Assembly: GCF_944327125.1 (NCBI RefSeq)
Contig: NZ_CALVGO010000007.1
Span: 1 to 41,483 of the forward strand
DNA: 41,483 bases
Direction of reading: 5' to 3'
Origin: an uncultured Faecalicoccus sp.
GTDB lineage: Bacteria > Bacillota_I > Bacilli_A > Erysipelotrichales > Erysipelotrichaceae
The translations under genes and the position numbers were made by a program. The notes below the pieces were generated by a model. It was not told the DNA's origin. It saw only the letters and a program-made list of their open reading frames with translations, and made no database searches. Positions 13,364 through 41,483 of the stretch are shown piece after piece. Numbering within the stretch: the first letter of the stretch is position 1; every line of letters starts with the position of its first letter.

Positions 13364-13381
13364 ACAAAGCAGGTGATGATG

Positions 13382-16204
13382 ATGGAAAAGAAGACGATCT
13401 CAATCAAAGGAGCTCGTGAAAACAATCTTAAAAATATAGACCTTGAGATCCCAAGAGATAAATTGGTGATCATGACGGGTGTCTCGGGAAGCGGCAAGAC
13501 CAGTCTTGCCTTTGATACGATCTATGCCGAAGGACAAAGGCGTTATATGGAATCGCTGTCGGCCTATGCCCGGCAGTTTTTAGGCAACAGTGAAAAACCG
13601 GATGTCGATCAGATCGACGGTTTATCTCCGGCCATTGCGATCGATCAAAAGACAACGTCAAACAATCCTAGAAGTACGGTAGGAACCGTTACGGAGATCT
13701 ACGATTATCTTCGACTGATGTATGCCCGGATCGGGGTGCCGTATTGCCCGCATCACAATGAACCGATCACTGGCTCTACGATCAAGGAGATGATCGATCG
13801 GATCATGGAACTGGAAGAGGGAACGCGGTGTACGATCTTGTCGCCGGTGGTTTCTGGAAAAAAGGGAACACATAAAGAATTGATCGAGAAACTGATCAAG
13901 GAAGGGTATGTTCGTATTCGTCTGGATGGACAAATCGTATACCTGGAAGAAGTGGAGACTTTAGAAAAGAATAAAAAACACAACATCGATGTCGTGGTGG
14001 ACCGTATCGTGAAATCCGACAACCGTTCCCGGTTTCACGATTCTTTGGAGACCGCTTTGAAACTGAGCGATGGAATGGCGATATTGCTGACGCCAAAGGA
14101 AGAAATCCTTTTTTCCAGCAATTACGCCTGTAAGATCTGCGGATTCAGCGTTCCTAAACTGGAGCCGAAACTGTTCAGCTTTAATGCGCCTTTCGGGGCG
14201 TGTCCGGAGTGTAAAGGCTTAGGCATTACCCAGAAGGTGGATGTTCAGCTTTTGATCCCGGATCCATCGCTTTCGATCGCCCAAGGCGGGATCCGATATT
14301 ATAAAAATATCGTAAATACGGAGAATCTGGAGTGGCAAAGGATGCAGGCCTTGATCGATTTCTACAAGATCGATATCCATACGCCGATCAAAAACCTTCC
14401 AAAAAAGGATCTTGACCATATCTTATACGGTTCGGATGTTCCGATTGCCTATCAGCTTCATTCGCGCGGCGGGATTCATCAGACCAAAAATGAATATATC
14501 GAAGGGGTGATCCCGATGATCGAACGCCGTTATATGGAAACCAACTCGGCCATGTCCCGCGACTGGTATGGTTCTTTTATCGCCGATGCACCTTGCCCTG
14601 TCTGTCATGGGGCCCGTTTGAACCAGCAGGCATTAAGCGTTCGGGTCGGCGGCAAAAACATCTATGAATGGACCCGGATGTCCATTAAAGAAGCATTGGA
14701 GTTTATGAACGACCTGAAATTGACCCCTATGCAGGAAAATATAGCGCATCTGATCATTAAGGAGATCAAAAGCCGTCTGGAGTTCTTGAATCATGTCGGA
14801 TTGAATTATTTGACGCTGGACCGTTTGGCTTCTACGCTCTCCGGCGGGGAAGCTCAGCGAATCCGTCTTGCGACGCAGATTGGTTCTCGTTTGACCGGTG
14901 TCATGTATGTATTGGATGAACCAAGCATCGGACTTCACCAAAGAGATAATGACCGCCTGATCTCCGCTTTAAAGGAAATGCGGGATCTTGGCAATACTTT
15001 GATCGTTGTGGAACACGATGAAGATACCATGAGAGCCAGTGATTATATCGTCGATGTTGGGCCGGGGGCCGGGATCCATGGAGGCCAGATCGTTGCGGCG
15101 GGAACACCGCAGGAGATCATGGACAATGCGGATTCGATCACCGGTGCTTATTTGAGCGGAAGAAAGCGCATCGAAGTACCTTTAAAACGCCGCAAAGGAA
15201 ACGGAAAGAAATTAAGGGTCGTAAAAGCGACGCAGAACAATTTAAAAAATGTAACAGTGGATTTCAAACTCGGAACACTCACCGTTGTCACCGGTGTTTC
15301 CGGATCGGGGAAATCCAGTCTGGTAACCGAAGTGCTGACGCACGGGGTACAAAATGCCCTGGGACGTTTACGGATCAAGCCGGGTGCCTGTAAAGAGATC
15401 AAGGGATTGGAAAACATCGATAAGATCGTTGAGATCTCCCAGGATCCTATTGGCCGGACCCCGCGAAGCAATCCGGCGACCTATACGGGGGTATTTGACG
15501 ATATCCGCGATTTGTTTGCCCAGACCAAAGAGGCAAAGATGCTGGGATACGATAAAGGAAGATTCTCCTTCAATGTAAAAGGGGGACGCTGCGAAGCCTG
15601 TCAGGGTGATGGGATCTTACGGATCTCGATGCATTTCCTTCCGGATGTCTATGTTCCCTGTGATCAGTGTGAAGGAAAGCGTTATAATGAAGAAACTCTG
15701 CAGGTGACTTATAAAGGAAAAAATATAGCGGACGTTTTAGATATGACGGTGGAAGAGGCGCTCGACTTCTTCGGCAATGTTTCCAAGATCCGTCATAAGC
15801 TTCAAACGTTGTATGATGTAGGTTTGTCTTATATTAAATTAGGTCAAAGCGCGACAACGCTCTCGGGCGGAGAGGCTCAGCGTGTCAAACTGGCCAGTGA
15901 ACTGCAGAAGAAGGCGACAGGAAAAACATTGTTTGTGCTGGATGAACCGACAACAGGGCTTCACAGTGACGATGTGAAGAAACTGATCGAAGTTCTTCAG
16001 CGGCTTGTGGATCATGGTGACACGGTCATTGTGATCGAACACAATCTGGATGTGATCAAATGTGCGGACCAGATCATCGATATTGGTCCTGAAGGCGGAC
16101 AGGAAGGCGGAACGATCTTAGTGAGCGGGACGCCGGAACAAGTGGCCGCCTGCAAGCAGAGTTATACAGGAAGATACTTAAGGCCTTTACTGGAAAGGAA
16201 GTGA
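13382..16204 (+). CDS. uvrA: Excinuclease ABC subunit UvrA
   Basis: DNA-damage-sensing ATPase of nucleotide excision repair. The 940-residue protein has two ABC modules. The first has Walker A GVSGSGKT at 33-40 and signature LSGGEAQRIRLATQIGS; the second has GVSGSGKSSLV and LSGGEAQRVKLASEL. Zinc modules are seen in CKICGF...CPECKG and CEACQGDG...CDQCEG. GTG and two ATG codons precede the chosen ATG in frame (13373-13379). AGG at 13371-13373 best serves 13382, but 13379 is possible. uvrB is not adjacent in this window. It probably leads an operon with hprK, lgt::ppaX and trxB. Confidence 0.96.
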   Translation: MEKKTISIKGARENNLKNIDLEIPRDKLVIMTGVSGSGKTSLAFDTIYAEGQRRYMESLSAYARQFLGNSEKPDVDQIDGLSPAIAIDQKTTSNNPRSTVGTVTEIYDYLRLMYARIGVPYCPHHNEPITGSTIKEMIDRIMELEEGTRCTILSPVVSGKKGTHKELIEKLIKEGYVRIRLDGQIVYLEEVETLEKNKKHNIDVVVDRIVKSDNRSRFHDSLETALKLSDGMAILLTPKEEILFSSNYACKICGFSVPKLEPKLFSFNAPFGACPECKGLGITQKVDVQLLIPDPSLSIAQGGIRYYKNIVNTENLEWQRMQALIDFYKIDIHTPIKNLPKKDLDHILYGSDVPIAYQLHSRGGIHQTKNEYIEGVIPMIERRYMETNSAMSRDWYGSFIADAPCPVCHGARLNQQALSVRVGGKNIYEWTRMSIKEALEFMNDLKLTPMQENIAHLIIKEIKSRLEFLNHVGLNYLTLDRLASTLSGGEAQRIRLATQIGSRLTGVMYVLDEPSIGLHQRDNDRLISALKEMRDLGNTLIVVEHDEDTMRASDYIVDVGPGAGIHGGQIVAAGTPQEIMDNADSITGAYLSGRKRIEVPLKRRKGNGKKLRVVKATQNNLKNVTVDFKLGTLTVVTGVSGSGKSSLVTEVLTHGVQNALGRLRIKPGACKEIKGLENIDKIVEISQDPIGRTPRSNPATYTGVFDDIRDLFAQTKEAKMLGYDKGRFSFNVKGGRCEACQGDGILRISMHFLPDVYVPCDQCEGKRYNEETLQVTYKGKNIADVLDMTVEEALDFFGNVSKIRHKLQTLYDVGLSYIKLGQSATTLSGGEAQRVKLASELQKKATGKTLFVLDEPTTGLHSDDVKKLIEVLQRLVDHGDTVIVIEHNLDVIKCADQIIDIGPEGGQEGGTILVSGTPEQVAACKQSYTGRYLRPLLERK

Positions 16205-16208
16205 AATC

Positions 16209-17186
16209 ATGCCGCAAGAAACACAGCCAACGATCAGCGTTAGAGATTTGGCCGCAAAATTCGCATGGGAGCAAGTAACAGGAGACGAAAACAGTCTGAA
16301 AAGACGGCTCGTCACCGCGGAAACCAACCGTCCCGGGCTGGAATTGACGGGTTATTTTCCCAATACAGTAGCCAAACGATTAACGATTTTAGGCGATAAA
16401 GAAATTCTATATATTGACCAGGAAATGGATGAAGTTTCACAGCGAAAAAGCTTTGAATTTTTAACCGGGGAGAATACTCCGGCCATTGTGATCGCCCATG
16501 GACACCAGTGTCCGCCGATACTGGCCGAAATTGCGATCCGTAAAAACTTTCCCATCTTTAAAACAGCGGTGGAAACCGCGCATACGATCGTAAATGTGAC
16601 CAACTATCTGGATGAAAGACTGGCTCATTCCATCATTATCCACGGCGAATTGATGCAGATATATGGAGTTGGGGTCATGATCACCGGAGATTCCGGAATG
16701 GGGAAAAGCGAGATTGCTCTGGAATTGATCAAAAAAGGACATCAGCTGGTAGCGGATGACCGCATTGACTGTTATCGGATCCATAATGTTCTGGTAGGAA
16801 GAACCCCAAAGATGTTAGAAGGATTTATGGAACTTCGAGGAGTCGGCATCATCAACATCGGCCGTATGTATGGCGTAGGGGCCTTTGCCCATCAGACCAA
16901 TATCGATTTTCAGATCGAACTGGTTTCTTTTGACGGAGAAGAAGAATACGACCGTGTCGGGATCGAAGAGAAAGAGTACTCTGAGATCATGGGCGTCAAG
17001 ATCTTGAAGATGCGTATCCCGGTCAGCGGCGGCCGTCCGATGTCTGCCATCATTGAAACCGCGGTGACCAACTATCTTCTGCTTCAGGATGGATTTGATT
17101 CTGCCAAGGAATTTGAAGAGATCGTACTGAAAAAGATCGCTGAGAACAAGGAAGGTAACGACGATGAGTCTGTTTCCGGATACTAA
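16209..17186 (+). CDS. hprK: HPr kinase/phosphorylase
   Basis: Master sensor of Gram-positive carbon catabolite repression. It phosphorylates HPr on Ser46 with ATP or pyrophosphate and removes it by phosphorolysis, releasing pyrophosphate. The 325-residue protein has an N-terminal domain and a C-terminal catalytic domain with P-loop GDSGMGKS at 160-167, followed by ADDRID, the family signature LRGVGIINI and IPVSGGRPMSAI. It overlaps the next gene by 23 bases; that gene encodes the pyrophosphatase that removes its product. Confidence 0.96.
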   Translation: MPQETQPTISVRDLAAKFAWEQVTGDENSLKRRLVTAETNRPGLELTGYFPNTVAKRLTILGDKEILYIDQEMDEVSQRKSFEFLTGENTPAIVIAHGHQCPPILAEIAIRKNFPIFKTAVETAHTIVNVTNYLDERLAHSIIIHGELMQIYGVGVMITGDSGMGKSEIALELIKKGHQLVADDRIDCYRIHNVLVGRTPKMLEGFMELRGVGIINIGRMYGVGAFAHQTNIDFQIELVSFDGEEEYDRVGIEEKEYSEIMGVKILKMRIPVSGGRPMSAIIETAVTNYLLLQDGFDSAKEFEEIVLKKIAENKEGNDDESVSGY

Positions 17187-18621
17187 GGTGATCCTTTCCT
17201 TTGGCGGATTTCATATTACCTGGTATGCCGTACTGATTTTGACCGGCGTGATCATTGCCTATATTCTGGCACAAAAGACGGTAAAAAAGTGGGGGTATTC
17301 CAGTGCGCTTTTAGAAGATTACGTGATTCCGATGATGGTTTTGTCGATCTTGGGCGCAAGAGCGTATTATGTGATCTTTGAATGGGATTTTTACAGTTCC
17401 CATCCCGATCAGATCCTTGCCATATGGAATGGCGGCCTGGCCATCTATGGCGGATTGATCGTAGGCGTTCTTTACAGTGTTTATTATTTTAAAAAGCGAA
17501 ACGTCAGCATTCTTAGAATGTTTGATGCGATCATGCCCGGGGTCATGGTGGCCCAGGCTTTTGGCCGCTGGGGCAACTTTATGAATCAGGAAGCCTTTGG
17601 GAAGATCGTCGATGAAAGTTACTTTGATCTTTTTCCGGGCTTCATCAAAGACCAGATGTATATTCAGGGGGCCTATAGAGAACCAACATTCTTATATGAA
17701 AGCATGGGCAATATCTTAGGCTTTCTTTTTATCTATTTTATTTTCCGGAAGAAGTTTTACCGCCATCGCGGGGACTGCGGTTTTATGTACTGTGTCTGGT
17801 ATGGGGCTCTGCGCTTTTTTGTCGAAGGGCTTCGCACCGATTCTTTGATGATAGGACCGCTCCGGGTATCGCAGCTGGTATCCATCGTGATCATTGGGAT
17901 CGGTATCCTGGGATTAAGCGGCATCCTGCACAAGCTTTTTCACTGGTATAAAAAACCCGTTCTTCTTTTTGATCTGGATGGAACGCTGCAGGATTCAAAA
18001 CATCTTGTATTTGAAACGTTTAAAGAAGTTTTCCATAAGTTAAAACCGGACCTTGTCTTAAGTGAAGAAGAATTGTATTCCTTTTTTGGACCGACATTGG
18101 AAGAAACGTTTGGCCGCTACTTCAAACCGGAAGATATCGAAAACGTGATCGAAGAATACCAGAAGATCAATCGAAGACTCCATAACGATCTTTTGAAAGC
18201 CATGCCGGGCGCTTTTGAGACCGTTTCGACATTGAAGGAACAAGGATATGCGATGGCAGTGGTATCCAACAAGCGGATCGCGGTCGTACAAATGGGATTA
18301 AAAGCGGTGGGACTGGAACCCTACTTTGATATAGTGCTGGGAAAAGAACAGCTTCCGGAACCTAAACCGAGTCCTTCCGGACTTTTGAAAGCATGTGAGT
18401 TGATGAAAACGGGACATGATGATGTAATCTATGTAGGCGACAACGTGACAGACATTGTCTGTGCCAAAAATATGGCCGCCTATTCGATTGGTTTCAGTAA
18501 CGATCCTTATCAAAGAGAAAAACAAGCCAAGGCCCATCCGTGTGCCCAGATACAGGATCTTAGAGAACTGATAGAACTTTGTAAGGAGGAAAAAGCATGG
18601 AGCGACAATACGATTTGGTAA
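17164..18621 (+). CDS. Lgt-PpaX fusion: lipoprotein diacylglyceryl transferase plus HAD pyrophosphatase
   Basis: One 485-residue frame joins two enzymes. Residues 1 to about 262 are Lgt, the membrane enzyme that adds diacylglycerol to the lipobox Cys of prolipoproteins. It has several hydrophobic segments and the signature GRWGNFMNQEAFG (134-146). The E. coli HGGL His is Tyr here (AIYGGL), a change I recall in other Firmicutes. Residues about 265-485 are a HAD phosphatase of PpaX length, with DLDGT (Asp270, Asp272), SNKR, a PKPSPSG lysine region and GDNVTD. In Bacillus hprK, lgt and ppaX are neighbouring separate genes. The Lgt C-terminus should face the cytoplasm, so the phosphatase would be tethered at the inner membrane surface. 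No stop or internal start with a ribosome site is evident at the junction. Confidence 0.9.
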   Translation: MSLFPDTKVILSFGGFHITWYAVLILTGVIIAYILAQKTVKKWGYSSALLEDYVIPMMVLSILGARAYYVIFEWDFYSSHPDQILAIWNGGLAIYGGLIVGVLYSVYYFKKRNVSILRMFDAIMPGVMVAQAFGRWGNFMNQEAFGKIVDESYFDLFPGFIKDQMYIQGAYREPTFLYESMGNILGFLFIYFIFRKKFYRHRGDCGFMYCVWYGALRFFVEGLRTDSLMIGPLRVSQLVSIVIIGIGILGLSGILHKLFHWYKKPVLLFDLDGTLQDSKHLVFETFKEVFHKLKPDLVLSEEELYSFFGPTLEETFGRYFKPEDIENVIEEYQKINRRLHNDLLKAMPGAFETVSTLKEQGYAMAVVSNKRIAVVQMGLKAVGLEPYFDIVLGKEQLPEPKPSPSGLLKACELMKTGHDDVIYVGDNVTDIVCAKNMAAYSIGFSNDPYQREKQAKAHPCAQIQDLRELIELCKEEKAWSDNTIW

Positions 18622-19511
18622 TCATTGGAGCCGGGCCAGCCGGCATGGCAGCCAGTGTGTATGGATCCCGCGCAGGATTAAAGACATTGTTGCTGGATAA
18701 CGGCGCACCGGGAGGAAAACTGATCAAAACGCATAAGATCTCAAACTATCCGGGAGTCAAAGAACTGGCTGGTGCCGATTTGGCGATGCAGATGTTTGAA
18801 CAGGCCACTTCATTCGGGGCGGAATATGCCTATGGTGATGTGGAGAAGGTAGATGCGGATAAAAAAGTGTATTTAAGCGATGGCACGGTGATCGAAGCCA
18901 AAGCGGTCCTGGTGGCCACAGGAACAAGGGAAAGACTGTTGAATATCCCAGGGGAAAAGGAAAATATCGGCAAAGGGGTATCTTTTTGTGCAGTGTGTGA
19001 TGGAGCGTTCTTCAAGGATAAAGAAGTCGTTGTGATCGGCGGCGGCAATTCCGCTTTGGAGGAAAGCCTTTATTTAACACAGTTTGTCAAAGGATTGACC
19101 ATCGTGATTCGAAGAGATGTCTTCCGGGCCGAAAAGCGAATCCAGGATCAAATCGAAGCCAATGAGAAGATCAAAGTCATCGTGAAACACATTCCTAAGG
19201 AAATTTTGAGCGAAAATGGAAAGGTTTCCGGAATCGTTTTGGAAAATGTAGAGACCAAAGAAACAAGGACCTTGGATTGTCAGGGTATTTTCCCATATAT
19301 CGGACAGGATCCTATGACGGCGTGTTTGGAAGGGCTGGATGTATTGGATCCGAAAGGATATGTGATCGTGGACAAGAATATGGAGACCAAGATCCCGGGT
19401 ATCTATGCGGCCGGGGACGTGATCCAGAAAGAACTTCGCCAGGTCGTGACGGCGACCAATGACGGAGCCATCGCCAGCCAGCATGCGTTTCACCAAATCA
19501 CCGGAATTTAG
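18597..19511 (+). CDS. trxB: Thioredoxin reductase
   Basis: NADPH-dependent FAD enzyme that reduces thioredoxin. The 304-residue protein has the N-terminal FAD loop GAGPAGMAAS, the redox-active pair CAVC at 131-134, the NADPH loop GGGNSALEES and the C-terminal GIYAAGDV flavin motif. AAGGAGG lies 9 bases before the ATG. It overlaps the end of the Lgt-PpaX frame by 25 bases. The likely partner trxA is about 7.7 kb to the right. Confidence 0.96.
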   Translation: MERQYDLVIIGAGPAGMAASVYGSRAGLKTLLLDNGAPGGKLIKTHKISNYPGVKELAGADLAMQMFEQATSFGAEYAYGDVEKVDADKKVYLSDGTVIEAKAVLVATGTRERLLNIPGEKENIGKGVSFCAVCDGAFFKDKEVVVIGGGNSALEESLYLTQFVKGLTIVIRRDVFRAEKRIQDQIEANEKIKVIVKHIPKEILSENGKVSGIVLENVETKETRTLDCQGIFPYIGQDPMTACLEGLDVLDPKGYVIVDKNMETKIPGIYAAGDVIQKELRQVVTATNDGAIASQHAFHQITGI

Positions 19512-27573: not shown

Positions 27574-27606
27574 ATGGTTTTTCGTTTTTCCGTCGTATGT
27601 ATATAT

Positions 27607-28575
27607 ATGAAGAACAAAAATACGAGATTGTTGGATACTTTGGAACAAAAACGAAACGCCTACGATGAATGTTGTAAGAAGATCTTACTGGATCCTCAAA
27701 TCATGGCATATATCTTGAAGGAGTGCGTTAACGAGCTGAGTTGTTTTTCCCGAAAAGAAATTGAACATCTTCTTTGTACAAACATGGTGATCGGGAATAC
27801 AGAAGACCTTACTGTGTCCGGGGCAAAAGTTTGTTTTGACATTTGTTTTCAGATCCCTGATAAAAATTTGATCATTGATCTGGAAGCACAGAGTAAAGAC
27901 CCTTCTGCATATCCTCTTCTTTCCAGAGCCATATATTATGGAAATCGTTTATTGGATGGACAAATCGAAGAAAGATACGGGTCGTTTAGAAAAGTCTATT
28001 CGATATGGATCTTACTGGATCCGGCCAGAGATGGAGGAAATGTGATCAATGTTTATAGAGTGAACGAAAAAACAATGTTAAAGGAATATAAGGGGAACGA
28101 AGCGTATTATGATTTGGTTTGTATTGTTATGATCGGTGTTCCAAAAGAGAATGAGGAGCCAATGAATGAGCTGATGGGGTTATTGCAGGTGTTGTTTGTG
28201 AAAAATCAGGAGGTTGAATATATAAAAACGACACTCATACAAAAATATGGTATACTATTGACAAAGGAACTGGATCAGGAGGTGGATGCGATGTGTAACT
28301 GGAGTGAGGTAGTGTATCAAAATGCCATGCGAAAAGGAATGCAGGAGGGCATGCAGAAAGGAATGCAGAAAGGTATCCAGAAAGGAATGCAGGAAGGTAT
28401 CCAGAAAGGCATCCAAAGAGGAATGGACAAAGGGATCCAAAAAGGAAATCGTGACAGCGCGCTCCTTCATACAAAAAAAATCATGGAAAGATTTTTGATC
28501 GGTCCGCAAGAGGCAATGGATGTGCTGGATATACAGGGACAATTGCGAGAAGATCTGTTGAAAGAGTTAGAATAA
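27607..28575 (+). CDS. Rpn-family (PD-(D/E)XK) nuclease with Gly-Met-Gln-Lys repeats
   Basis: Proteins of this family (formerly called YhgA-like transposase) are RecA-independent recombination-promoting nucleases. The 322-residue protein shows the core FDICFQIPDKNLIIDLEAQ, with candidate catalytic Asp78, Glu93 and Gln95. Near the C-terminus (about 238-280) is a run of tetrapeptides of the type KGMQ/KGIQ/EGMQ, often seen in these proteins. No ribosome site is visible before the ATG at 27607, and an upstream in-frame start would overlap the trxA terminator, so expression may be low. It stands alone between two terminators and beside a tRNA gene. Confidence 0.8.
   Translation: MKNKNTRLLDTLEQKRNAYDECCKKILLDPQIMAYILKECVNELSCFSRKEIEHLLCTNMVIGNTEDLTVSGAKVCFDICFQIPDKNLIIDLEAQSKDPSAYPLLSRAIYYGNRLLDGQIEERYGSFRKVYSIWILLDPARDGGNVINVYRVNEKTMLKEYKGNEAYYDLVCIVMIGVPKENEEPMNELMGLLQVLFVKNQEVEYIKTTLIQKYGILLTKELDQEVDAMCNWSEVVYQNAMRKGMQEGMQKGMQKGIQKGMQEGIQKGIQRGMDKGIQKGNRDSALLHTKKIMERFLIGPQEAMDVLDIQGQLREDLLKELE
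28325..28449 (+). repeat. 12-base tandem repeat in the Rpn gene
   Basis: About ten imperfect 12-base units (forms of AAAGGAATGCAG and AAAGGTATCCAG) encode the Lys-Gly-Met/Ile-Gln repeats. The units differ mainly at the ATG/ATC and GAG/AAA codons. Copy number is likely to vary by slippage. Confidence 0.8.
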
Positions 28576-38502: not shown

Positions 38503-38514
38503 GCAAGGCCTAAC
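38491..38514 (-). terminator. Terminator of the hyp operon
   Basis: GTTAGGC-AAG-GCCTAAC (38498-38514); on the minus strand it is followed by seven T (38497-38491). The hairpin overlaps the stop codons of both the XRE gene and hypE. Confidence 0.82.
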
Positions 38515-39478
38515 AAATTCTTGGCAAGGGTCTTCCGGTCAATTTGTGTAATTGACGGAGGGCCCCTATTTTTGTCCTTAAATAGAGTTTTTTAGGATGA
38601 TCCTTTGTGATCCTTCCGATGATGCGTGCCTCTTTTCCTAAGGCGGAACAAAGATCGGCAGCTTCCTTTTGATCGACGATGCACAACATCCGTCCTTCAC
38701 AGGCAAGATACAGGGGATCCAATCCCAGGATGGAACACAGTGTTTCGACGTCTTTATCAACAGGCAAGGCATCTTCCCACAATTCCATGCCAAAATCCGA
38801 TCTTTCGATCAATTCGATACAAGTAGTGGCAACGCCTCCGCGGGTAGGATCGCGCAGGATCCGAAGTCCTTCACAGGCAAAGGCCTGAAACGCTTTCTCT
38901 TTTAAAAGGGCACAGTCCGAGTGTAATTCGCCTTGAATGCGGATGTCTTCACGGGCCATAAAAACACTGGCTCCATGCCGGCCCATGCTTCCCGACAAGA
39001 TCACAGCATCGTTTTCCTGGTACTGATATCCGGTCTTTTTTTTCAAAAAACCAATACCGGATGTGTTGATAAAGATCTGGTTTCCTTTTTGTCTTTCTAT
39101 GACCTTAGTATCTCCGGTCACTAAGGAAACACCGGCCTGAGCGCAAACGGTTGACAGGGACTGCAGGATCTGTTTTAGGTCTTCGATATCAAAGCCTTCT
39201 TCAAGGATCAAAGCGCAAGAAAGGTATTTTGGATCGCCGCCGGCCATGCAGATGTCATTGATAGTGCCGCAGGCGGCCAGTTTACCGATATCGCCGCCAG
39301 GAAATTTCCAGGGATCGACGATAAAACTATCGGTAGAAAACACTAGCTGGTCATTGAGAACGGCACCATCCTTGAGTTCTTTTAAAGCGGGATCCTCAAA
39401 ACTGGGAATGATCAGTTCATCGATCAAATCGGAAGTCAGCTGTCCGCCGCTTCCATGATCCAGGGTGATTTTTTTCAT
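38510..39478 (-). CDS. hypE: Hydrogenase maturation protein HypE
   Basis: Converts the carbamoyl group on its C-terminal Cys to thiocyanate, the source of cyanide ligands for NiFe hydrogenase. The 322-residue PurM-like protein starts with LDHGSGGQLTSDLI and has the Gly-rich GDIGKLAACGTINDICMAGG and RDPTRGGVATT motifs. It ends exactly in PRIC, so the essential Cys is the last residue. It overlaps hypD by 4 bases and ends the operon. Confidence 0.96.
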   Translation of the reverse strand: MKKITLDHGSGGQLTSDLIDELIIPSFEDPALKELKDGAVLNDQLVFSTDSFIVDPWKFPGGDIGKLAACGTINDICMAGGDPKYLSCALILEEGFDIEDLKQILQSLSTVCAQAGVSLVTGDTKVIERQKGNQIFINTSGIGFLKKKTGYQYQENDAVILSGSMGRHGASVFMAREDIRIQGELHSDCALLKEKAFQAFACEGLRILRDPTRGGVATTCIELIERSDFGMELWEDALPVDKDVETLCSILGLDPLYLACEGRMLCIVDQKEAADLCSALGKEARIIGRITKDHPKKLYLRTKIGALRQLHKLTGRPLPRIC

Positions 39479-40503
39479 AGTGTTTCCTCCTCATAATAAT
39501 AGCTGGCTGCACAGGCACCTTCGCTGGAAACCATACAGGGGCCAACGGGGTGATAGGGGGTGCAGCTTTTATGGAACAAAGGACATTGGTGCGGTGACAA
39601 AGTACCGCAAAGGATATCGGCACATCGGCATCCGGCGGGTTCTTTATTGGTCATCTTTTCAAGATCAAAATGTTTCCAGGCATCCCAGGCTTCGTATTCT
39701 TTTCGAATCTGAAGTCCGCTTTGTTTCAGAAGGCCAAGCCCTCTCCAAAGTGAATCTCTGGATTCAAAAACTTCTTCGATCAAAGACAGGGCAGCCGGGT
39801 TTCCCTTTTTTTTGACGGCCCGGGTGTAAGTATTCTCAAGCTTTGGGGTCTTTTTGTCGATCATCTGGATCAGTTTTTCAATGGAAATCAGAAGGTCCTC
39901 TTCTTCAAACCCGCAGATCACGCCAGGCTTGTGATATGTTTTGGGAAGAAAGGAAAAACTGGTTTCGCCCAAGATCACGGCCACATGCCCGGGGCAAAGA
40001 AATCCGTCGATCTGGGTATCGGGCGCCTCTAAAACTGCCTCCATGGCAGGCTGGGTTCTTTTCAGAGCGCTTAGAAAATAAAAGTTTTGAAGCTTTTGTT
40101 TCTTTGCCTCTTTGATACAGAGGGCACTTCCCGGGGCGGTGGTTTCAAATCCGACTCCTAAAAAAAGGATGTCTTTTGAAGGATTCTTTTTGGCGATCTC
40201 CAGGGCTTCCATACACGAAAGACAAATGCGGACGTTGGCATACTCATGCAGACTTTGGCCCTGACTTCCCGGTACCTTCAACATATCGCCATAACTGCAC
40301 AGGATCTTATTGGGATCTTCTGCCAGCTTACATGCGGTATCGATATAGGAAGAAGGGGTAACGCAGACAGGGCATCCGGGGCCGGAGATCAATTGTACAT
40401 TGTCCGGCAGCAGGGATTTGATTCCGGATCGCGCAATGGCCATGGTATGGGTGCCGCAGACTTCCATGATCTTAATGGGACGGTTTGGCTTACTGAATCT
40501 CAT
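39475..40503 (-). CDS. hypD: Hydrogenase maturation protein HypD
   Basis: Iron-sulfur scaffold on which Fe(CN)2CO is assembled with HypC and HypE. Motifs seen are EVCGTHTMAI, GPGCPVCVTP, GFETTAP and the C-terminal Cys-rich part (CRCADILCG...CPLFHKSC...GPCMVSSEGAC). Length is 342 residues from the ATG at 40503, which has AGGAGA upstream. The N-terminus reaches the EVCGTHT motif after only about 14 residues, while most HypD have a 25-40 residue lead with a FRDPE-like helix. The frame is open further upstream but overlaps hypC and shows no family resemblance. Function is probably intact. Confidence 0.93.
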   Translation of the reverse strand: MRFSKPNRPIKIMEVCGTHTMAIARSGIKSLLPDNVQLISGPGCPVCVTPSSYIDTACKLAEDPNKILCSYGDMLKVPGSQGQSLHEYANVRICLSCMEALEIAKKNPSKDILFLGVGFETTAPGSALCIKEAKKQKLQNFYFLSALKRTQPAMEAVLEAPDTQIDGFLCPGHVAVILGETSFSFLPKTYHKPGVICGFEEEDLLISIEKLIQMIDKKTPKLENTYTRAVKKKGNPAALSLIEEVFESRDSLWRGLGLLKQSGLQIRKEYEAWDAWKHFDLEKMTNKEPAGCRCADILCGTLSPHQCPLFHKSCTPYHPVGPCMVSSEGACAASYYYEEETL

Positions 40504-40711
40504 CGAAGATCTCCTGATAAATCGATCGGGTCTTTTGGGCTTCACCGGCATCGATGATCTCAATCGCAAAGCCGGCATGAACCAAGACTTCATCACCAAC
40601 TTTGACGCCGGGCACAAAATCAATGCGGATCTCCTGAGAGAGCCCGTTGGCCTGAACAAGGGCCTTATTTTGATCGATCTTTTGTACTGTCAATGGAATC
40701 GCAAGACACAT
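40490..40711 (-). CDS. hypC: Hydrogenase maturation chaperone HypC
   Basis: Small chaperone that carries the iron moiety between HypD and the hydrogenase large subunit. The 73-residue protein begins MCLAIP with the essential Cys2, and has the conserved GDEVLVHAGFAIEIID stretch. AAGGAAG lies before the ATG inside the end of hypF. It overlaps the hypD start by 14 bases. Confidence 0.95.
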   Translation of the reverse strand: MCLAIPLTVQKIDQNKALVQANGLSQEIRIDFVPGVKVGDEVLVHAGFAIEIIDAGEAQKTRSIYQEIFDEIQ

Positions 40712-40715
40712 CGTA

Positions 40716-41483
40716 TCACTTCCTTCTTTTATGGGCGATGGCAAGCTGCCCTAAGGCAATGCCTTCATCGTTACAGCTGACTTCCCGGTGCCAGAAAACA
40801 GGGTAATGCAGCTGCATCAATTTTTCAATCAAACCATGGAGTATCGTCATATTTTGAAAACAGCCGCCGCTGAGCACAACAGGCTTCTTTTCTGGATTCA
40901 AAGTTTTTACCTGATCGATGGCCATCTCTATCAGGGTATTCATCATCTTTTTGGCCTGGATCGAAGGTTGTTCGGCTTCTGTCAAAGCCATAAGGATCAT
41001 TTCTTTCCAGTCAAAATAACGGATCCCGTTTTGAATATAAAACGAGTAAGGATATGTTTTATCGGTTTGTGCTGCCATGTTTTCCAGACTGACAGGGGCC
41101 TCTCCTTCGTAGCGCCGTTTGGTCTTTGATGTGATCAAAGAGTAGAAACCATCAAAGAGTCTTCCCATGCTTGTGCAGGACAGGCTGTGAGGCATACCGA
41201 TCGTTTTAAGAAGTTCCTGTTTTTCTTTTTCAAAAAGTAAGATTTCCTGACCGGCTTCCAGGCTTAACGCAAGGCCGATGCGGCCGATCTCTACGATGGC
41301 CTTTTCGTTTCCTATCAAAGGAATCGGGCGAATGGAACCCATACGGCGAAAGTCTTTTCGATCGCCCATGAGAAATTCACCGCCCCAGAGAGAACCGTCC
41401 TCTCCATATCCGGTTCCATCCCATATAATACCGAAGCACTCTTCATCCAGATCGTTTTCGAACATGCAGGAGGCCATATGGGC
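40716..41483 (-). CDS. hypF: Carbamoyltransferase HypF, C-terminal part (cut by window edge)
   Basis: Makes the carbamoyl group that HypE turns into cyanide. Only the C-terminal 255 or so residues are inside the window. They match the Kae1/YrdC-linked carbamoyltransferase domain: AHMASCM at the edge (a metal-binding His), WDGTGYGEDGSLWGGEFL and VVLSGGCFQNMTIL, with the end NDEGIALGQLAIA. The upstream acylphosphatase, zinc-finger and YrdC domains must lie to the right. The stop codon is 4 bases from the hypC start. Confidence 0.94.
   Translation of the reverse strand, partial: AHMASCMFENDLDEECFGIIWDGTGYGEDGSLWGGEFLMGDRKDFRRMGSIRPIPLIGNEKAIVEIGRIGLALSLEAGQEILLFEKEKQELLKTIGMPHSLSCTSMGRLFDGFYSLITSKTKRRYEGEAPVSLENMAAQTDKTYPYSFYIQNGIRYFDWKEMILMALTEAEQPSIQAKKMMNTLIEMAIDQVKTLNPEKKPVVLSGGCFQNMTILHGLIEKLMQLHYPVFWHREVSCNDEGIALGQLAIAHKRRK

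Follow-up and report, generated by a model that had tools for sequence, protein, structure and literature searches.

The window, by which we mean the whole stretch of 41,483 nucleotides analyzed here from an uncultured Faecalicoccus sp., encodes a single protein of 485 residues in which the lipoprotein-modifying enzyme Lgt is followed by a PpaX-like phosphatase of the HAD superfamily (lgt::HAD fusion gene, 17164-18621, + strand). On balance, we favor the view that this is an old, vertically inherited fusion of lgt and ppaX that dates to the base of the Erysipelotrichaceae. It would make a membrane Lgt with a tethered cytosolic HAD; location would be what was gained, and in some relatives a dead Lgt would have been kept as the anchor. 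As judged from the sequences, the two halves share one frame, both active sites are intact, the protein occupies the same slot across the family, and relatives display patterns of loss.

The open reading frame starts with an ATG, has no internal stop and is preceded by a Shine-Dalgarno-like AAGGAAGG (17148-17155, +), located 8 nt before the ATG and within the end of hprK. The Lgt domain (residues 1-251, 17164-17916, +), with seven expected membrane segments, is delimited by Pfam LGT (residues 9-250, 2e-69), TIGR00544, the structural model and its match to PDB 5azb. It is followed by a short linker (residues 252-265, 17917-17958, +), defined by the comparison of linker lengths and by AlphaFold2, and by the HAD phosphatase domain (residues 266-485, 17959-18618, +), identified by Pfam (HAD_2, residues 267-443, 1e-46), NCBIfam, its motifs and Foldseek. 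The AlphaFold2 model, built with 20 sequences, has two confident domains (mean pLDDT 87.3, pTM 0.80), the last membrane helix spanning residues 235-251, a short helix residues 254-258 and the first HAD strand residues 266-269. Its Foldseek matches are E. coli Lgt (5azb, E 2.8e-10) and many HAD phosphatases, including a Bacteroides HAD pyrophosphatase (3quq). The linker between a complete Lgt and the HAD is shorter than 15 residues, about 8-14. The frame, the Pfam domains and the family-wide conservation bear out the first-pass annotation, which had described two neighbors of the hprK operon joined in one 485-residue protein with the DxD motif at residues 270/272; the junction, which it put near residue 262, falls at about 252-265.

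As had also been noted, the fusion lies directly after hprK (16209-17186, +; TIGR00679, 330 bits), which it overlaps by 23 nt. Its other end overlaps trxB (18597-19511, +; TIGR01292, 353 bits) by 25 nt, and trxB has a strong Shine-Dalgarno sequence, AAGGAGG, at 18583-18589. With its start inside the end of hprK and its stop inside the start of trxB, the fusion is part of a tightly packed block, and we saw no start signal at the junction. This conserved uvrA-hprK-lgt-HAD-trxB block begins with uvrA (13373-16204, +) and is preceded on the same strand by dnaX, recR, mutS, mutL and miaA, named from the translations of their open reading frames. Elsewhere in the window we observed a 333-residue open reading frame (27574-28575) that contains a GMQKGIQ-type repeat and may encode an Rpn-like nuclease, and hypE- and hypD-like genes with the end of hypF, a set for hydrogenase maturation recognized from translations alone (38510-41477, - strand).

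Could the fusion be an artefact of assembly or sequencing? We consider this vanishingly improbable and found no point in its support. A search of relatives for the same fusion, as the first-pass annotation had suggested, found it unbroken and at full length, by query coverage across the sampled family genomes, in 110 of 146 separately assembled Erysipelotrichaceae genomes and 49 of 60 genera, in the slot uvrA-hprK-X-trxB. Named members include Faecalitalea, Holdemanella biformis, Catenisphaera, Absicoccus, Amedibacillus dolichus and Erysipelothrix, and three sampled genomes of the window's genus carry the fusion unbroken at 76-80% identity. This continuity excludes a sequencing error hiding a stop codon at the junction, a concern raised when the fusion was first described. 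Separate initiation of the HAD is also unlikely, because in 62 of 71 family fusions the 15 codons before the DxD contain neither an in-frame ATG nor a GTG or TTG with a Shine-Dalgarno-like stretch; we rejected an independent internal start on these grounds.

The sister lineages indicate how the fusion arose. In the sister family f2, lgt and the HAD are separate genes, which in four genomes (G188, G159, G161 and G156) follow hprK in that order and precede trxB where it is visible. Separate hprK, lgt and HAD genes in this order likewise occur in Listeria, Neobacillus, Lysinibacillus and Priestia, and the sampled lactobacilli and Streptococcus have hprK-lgt but lack a HAD at this place. Separate genes between the same flanks had been proposed as evidence against the fusion. 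They do exist, but in sister lineages, where they are the ancestral state and not the sign of an error. Adjacent lgt and ppaX genes would have fused at the base of the Erysipelotrichaceae (f1), and the product would then have been inherited vertically.

Elsewhere in the class, families f14 and f3 and some members of f8 likewise encode Lgt-HAD as a single frame in this slot, and in the Lgt tree the unfused f2, f9 and f12 separate these fusions from those of the Erysipelotrichaceae. A tree that keeps all fused proteins (f1, f14 and f3) in one group is worse by 93.5 log units (p-AU 2.5e-7), and we rejected a single origin for all Lgt-HAD fusions; the fusions of f14 and f3 as one event are a borderline case (p 0.037). 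The distance from the R246 equivalent to the DxD also differs, being 39-50 residues in nearly all fusions of f1, 55 (to 65) in f3, 58-66 in f14 and 52 in two proteins of f8. Given the non-monophyly and the differing linkers, the two genes probably joined more than once. Separate joins are the simplest reading, and one early fusion followed by several later splits is its formal alternative. We also observed in f8 (L135, L136, L137, L138, L139, L140 and L148) Lgt proteins with an N-terminal extension of 140-170 residues, free of Pfam matches in the three that were scanned, and an absence of hprK between uvrA and lgt at these loci. In f9 (L144:1444-2520 and L145:1729-2829), about 90 residues with no HAD match extend the C terminus of the Lgt encoded between hprK and trxB.

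The Lgt half scores well above the family cut-offs (TIGR00544, 200 bits against 118.9; PF01790, 234 against 24.9). When aligned with E. coli Lgt, its signature motif GRWGNFMNQEAFG (residues 134-146, 17563-17601, +) is part of the invariant core, R135 corresponding to R143, and R217, E221 and R224 (17812-17835, +) correspond to R239, E243 and R246. The full set of retained equivalents comprises Y26, R143, N146, E151, G154, E202, Y235, R239, E243 and R246. The exception is H103 of the HGGL motif, which is essential in E. coli, where H103Y is inactive (PMC4728403). The window's genus has Tyr at this position, where other members of the clade have His, Gln, Tyr or others. In the family sample, no further Lgt is present in the genomes with Gln there or in the sister genome G029, with Tyr, and the position therefore does not look strictly constrained in this clade. 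The fused protein is the sole Lgt in about 48 of 63 family genomes and, on this distribution, is presumably active. The window's own genome has a second Lgt-like gene (L003:3-668, G000:C21), whose start is lost at a contig edge and which has Cys at the positions of N146 and E151. Two genomes of the same family rated 98-99% complete (G016 and G056) have no LGT-family match at all.

The HAD half retains the DxD, Ser, Lys and GDNVTD motifs of the type IA HAD superfamily, with motif I at D270-L-D272 (17971-17979, +) and motifs II (S368), III (K401) and IV (D426 and D430) at 18265-18453 (+). It had been called PpaX, and this holds in part: the PpaX family NF009804 is its best HAD family, and its position after hprK-lgt is that of PpaX, but its 155 bits are below the cut-off of 218. 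Unfused HADs exceed this cut-off (230 in f2, 240 in f12, 318 in Neobacillus and 319 in Listeria), whereas the fused ones are under it (214 in f14, 212 in f3, 197 in Amedibacillus, 146 in f8 and 131-137 in proteins with a dead Lgt). The HAD tree groups the fusion HAD with the PpaX of Bacilli, to the exclusion of 9 of the 10 other HADs, with a support of only 75/75, and long branches and one within-family duplicate (L065) weaken these tests of ancestry. We call this HAD PpaX-like and stop short of assigning it to the PpaX equivalog.

What could such a phosphatase do on Lgt? PpaX acts on the pyrophosphate from HprK, which is a cytosolic enzyme. The fused HAD could thus be a pyrophosphatase that pulls the HprK-catalyzed phosphorolysis of P-Ser-HPr, brought by the fusion to the membrane near HprK. 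The slot directly behind hprK in most genomes, PpaX as the top named HAD family and the unfused relatives above the cut-off are in line with this idea, which we nevertheless consider unlikely. Besides the cytosolic nature of HprK, the score of the window's HAD and the lactobacilli with hprK-lgt and no adjacent HAD speak against it. Three f8 genomes that lack HprK and HPr still encode the HAD, two of them as a fusion and one as a separate gene, and conversely HprK is retained in four genomes of three genera where the HAD active site was lost (G037, G081, G051 and G013). Furthermore, another pyrophosphatase (family I, II or membrane) is present in 30 of the 30 genomes tested, including two family II matches in the window's genome, and we rejected the HAD as sole pyrophosphatase. 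The proposal that the fusion links lipoprotein modification with the clearing of HprK pyrophosphate is thus not supported, in view of these other pyrophosphatases, of HADs without HprK, of HprK without a HAD and of HADs whose fused Lgt is dead or gone. The loss patterns suggest that the HAD does not necessarily serve HprK.

Coupling of the two chemistries is even less plausible. HAD phosphatases take small phosphate esters, and Lgt makes glycerol-1-phosphate, a by-product that the HAD might dephosphorylate. Yet the catalytic residues of Lgt are in its periplasmic half (PMC4728403) and the HAD would be cytosolic; moreover, the HAD is kept with a dead or absent Lgt and lost with an intact one. 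We favor instead a contribution of the fusion to location. The C terminus of E. coli Lgt is cytoplasmic in the published topology, and enzymes engineered onto it act at the cytoplasmic inner face (PMC9893748, PMC6277518). By analogy, the natural fusion can be read as a membrane-tethered phosphatase whose HAD should be at the cytoplasmic face of the membrane, as anticipated in the first-pass annotation. For this clade we infer that the Lgt works in the membrane and that the short linker holds the HAD at its inner face, a tether that may be beneficial. The chemistries would probably be independent, with Lgt making glycerol-1-phosphate on the outer side and the HAD acting on a cytosolic phosphate ester or on pyrophosphate.

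The fate of the fusion in some relatives is consistent with such a role. In some family members (L070-L077 and L082), the slot encodes a protein of 409-462 residues with an intact HAD and a degenerate Lgt half. In genus g31, 18 of 28 loci examined keep this dead-Lgt protein and the other 10 encode only the HAD, which in the HAD tree requires two losses of the membrane part; a soluble HAD thus followed the loss of the dead Lgt at least twice in g31, and also in G061/G117. All 18 dead halves of g31 have replaced the residues matching N146, E151, G154, E202, Y235 and E243, and most kept R143. They nonetheless retain the frame and their hydrophobic segments (about seven in the proteins inspected). 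Between close pairs of dead-Lgt proteins, dN/dS is 0.05-0.15 for the membrane part against 0.02-0.08 for the HAD. The dead half usually has the greater value, by a factor of up to about four, whereas close pairs of intact fusions have about 0.02-0.1 in both halves; dS approaches saturation in many pairs. The dead half is thus relaxed, not free. Its purifying selection could reflect another function or a constraint on membrane insertion. A second Lgt is present in all five genomes of the 63-genome sample whose fused Lgt is dead or missing (G003, G031, G039, G053 and G061), compared with 7 of the 56 others (Fisher p 1.3e-4, kinship between genomes ignored). The second Lgts aligned have Cys at the positions of N146 and E151, and two of them score 326 and 312 bits, near the 334 bits of an NCBIfam Lgt equivalog. 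This suggests that the second Lgt took over lipidation where the fused one died; the latter would have lost its active site and stayed as the membrane anchor of the phosphatase. At three other loci, from three genera (L066:2375-3463, L068:1530-2594 and L069:2245-3387), it is the HAD half that has shrunk, in frame, to about 100 residues without the catalytic motifs.

A dead membrane half kept in frame with a HAD under purifying selection means that phosphatase tethering may be selected. We advance tentatively a stronger version, in which the tether itself is the selected trait and, in several Erysipelotrichaceae lineages, a dead seven-segment Lgt is kept only as a scaffold for the PpaX-type phosphatase. 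The tether is not indispensable, as judged from the lineages that lost the dead Lgt and were left with a soluble HAD. Because of these losses, a neutral fusion stays in play, in which translationally coupled neighbors lost a stop codon and joining benefits neither domain. The adjacent or overlapping lgt and HAD genes of unfused relatives, the repetition of the fusion and the separate loss of each half in some lineages agree with such neutrality. It is less easily reconciled with a fusion that 49 of 60 genera retain, its linker hardly varying in length, or with a dead Lgt keeping its frame, hydrophobic segments and low dN/dS across a diversified genus, and we hold it possible but somewhat doubtful.

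Both PpaX and Lgt are found widely, and the latter is a target for antibacterials; to our knowledge, little is understood of what the HAD of this operon does. The series found in one slot (separate genes, fusion, dead-Lgt tether, HAD alone and decayed HAD) separates two functions, and reveals a HAD kept independently of both HprK and Lgt. If the tether is selected, PpaX would have a substrate or partner at the membrane that has yet to be described. The genome pairs make the membrane-tethering role directly testable. Our search of the open-access literature turned up no paper that describes an Lgt-HAD fusion, and automatic domain databases may already list the architecture. Neither the two domains nor their gene order is novel, but the architecture appears to be new.

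The fusion can be compared with several known systems. It shares with E. coli Lgt (PDB 5azb) the fold and the equivalents of R143, N146, E151, G154, Y235, R239, E243 and R246, and differs in the Tyr at H103 and in its C-terminal HAD domain. Like the engineered Lgt-enzyme fusions (PMC9893748, PMC6277518), where a cytosolic enzyme on the Lgt C terminus works at the inner face, it would be a case of Lgt anchoring an enzyme, but a natural one with a short linker, whereas those are laboratory constructs into which flexible linkers were introduced. The hprK-lgt-ppaX cluster of Bacillales has the same genes in the same order, with a PpaX-type HAD following lgt, as separate genes and not as one protein with trxB directly downstream. 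Relative to PpaX (NF009804), the fusion HAD has the same active site and the FxGPxL and N...H cap motifs common to the unfused operon HADs, but is below the cut-off and predicted to be membrane tethered. Finally, the dehydrogenase/phosphatase MtlD differs in being soluble, with both halves serving one pathway. What it has in common with the Lgt-HAD protein is that a HAD phosphatase forms one half of a fused protein (PDB 7ocq).
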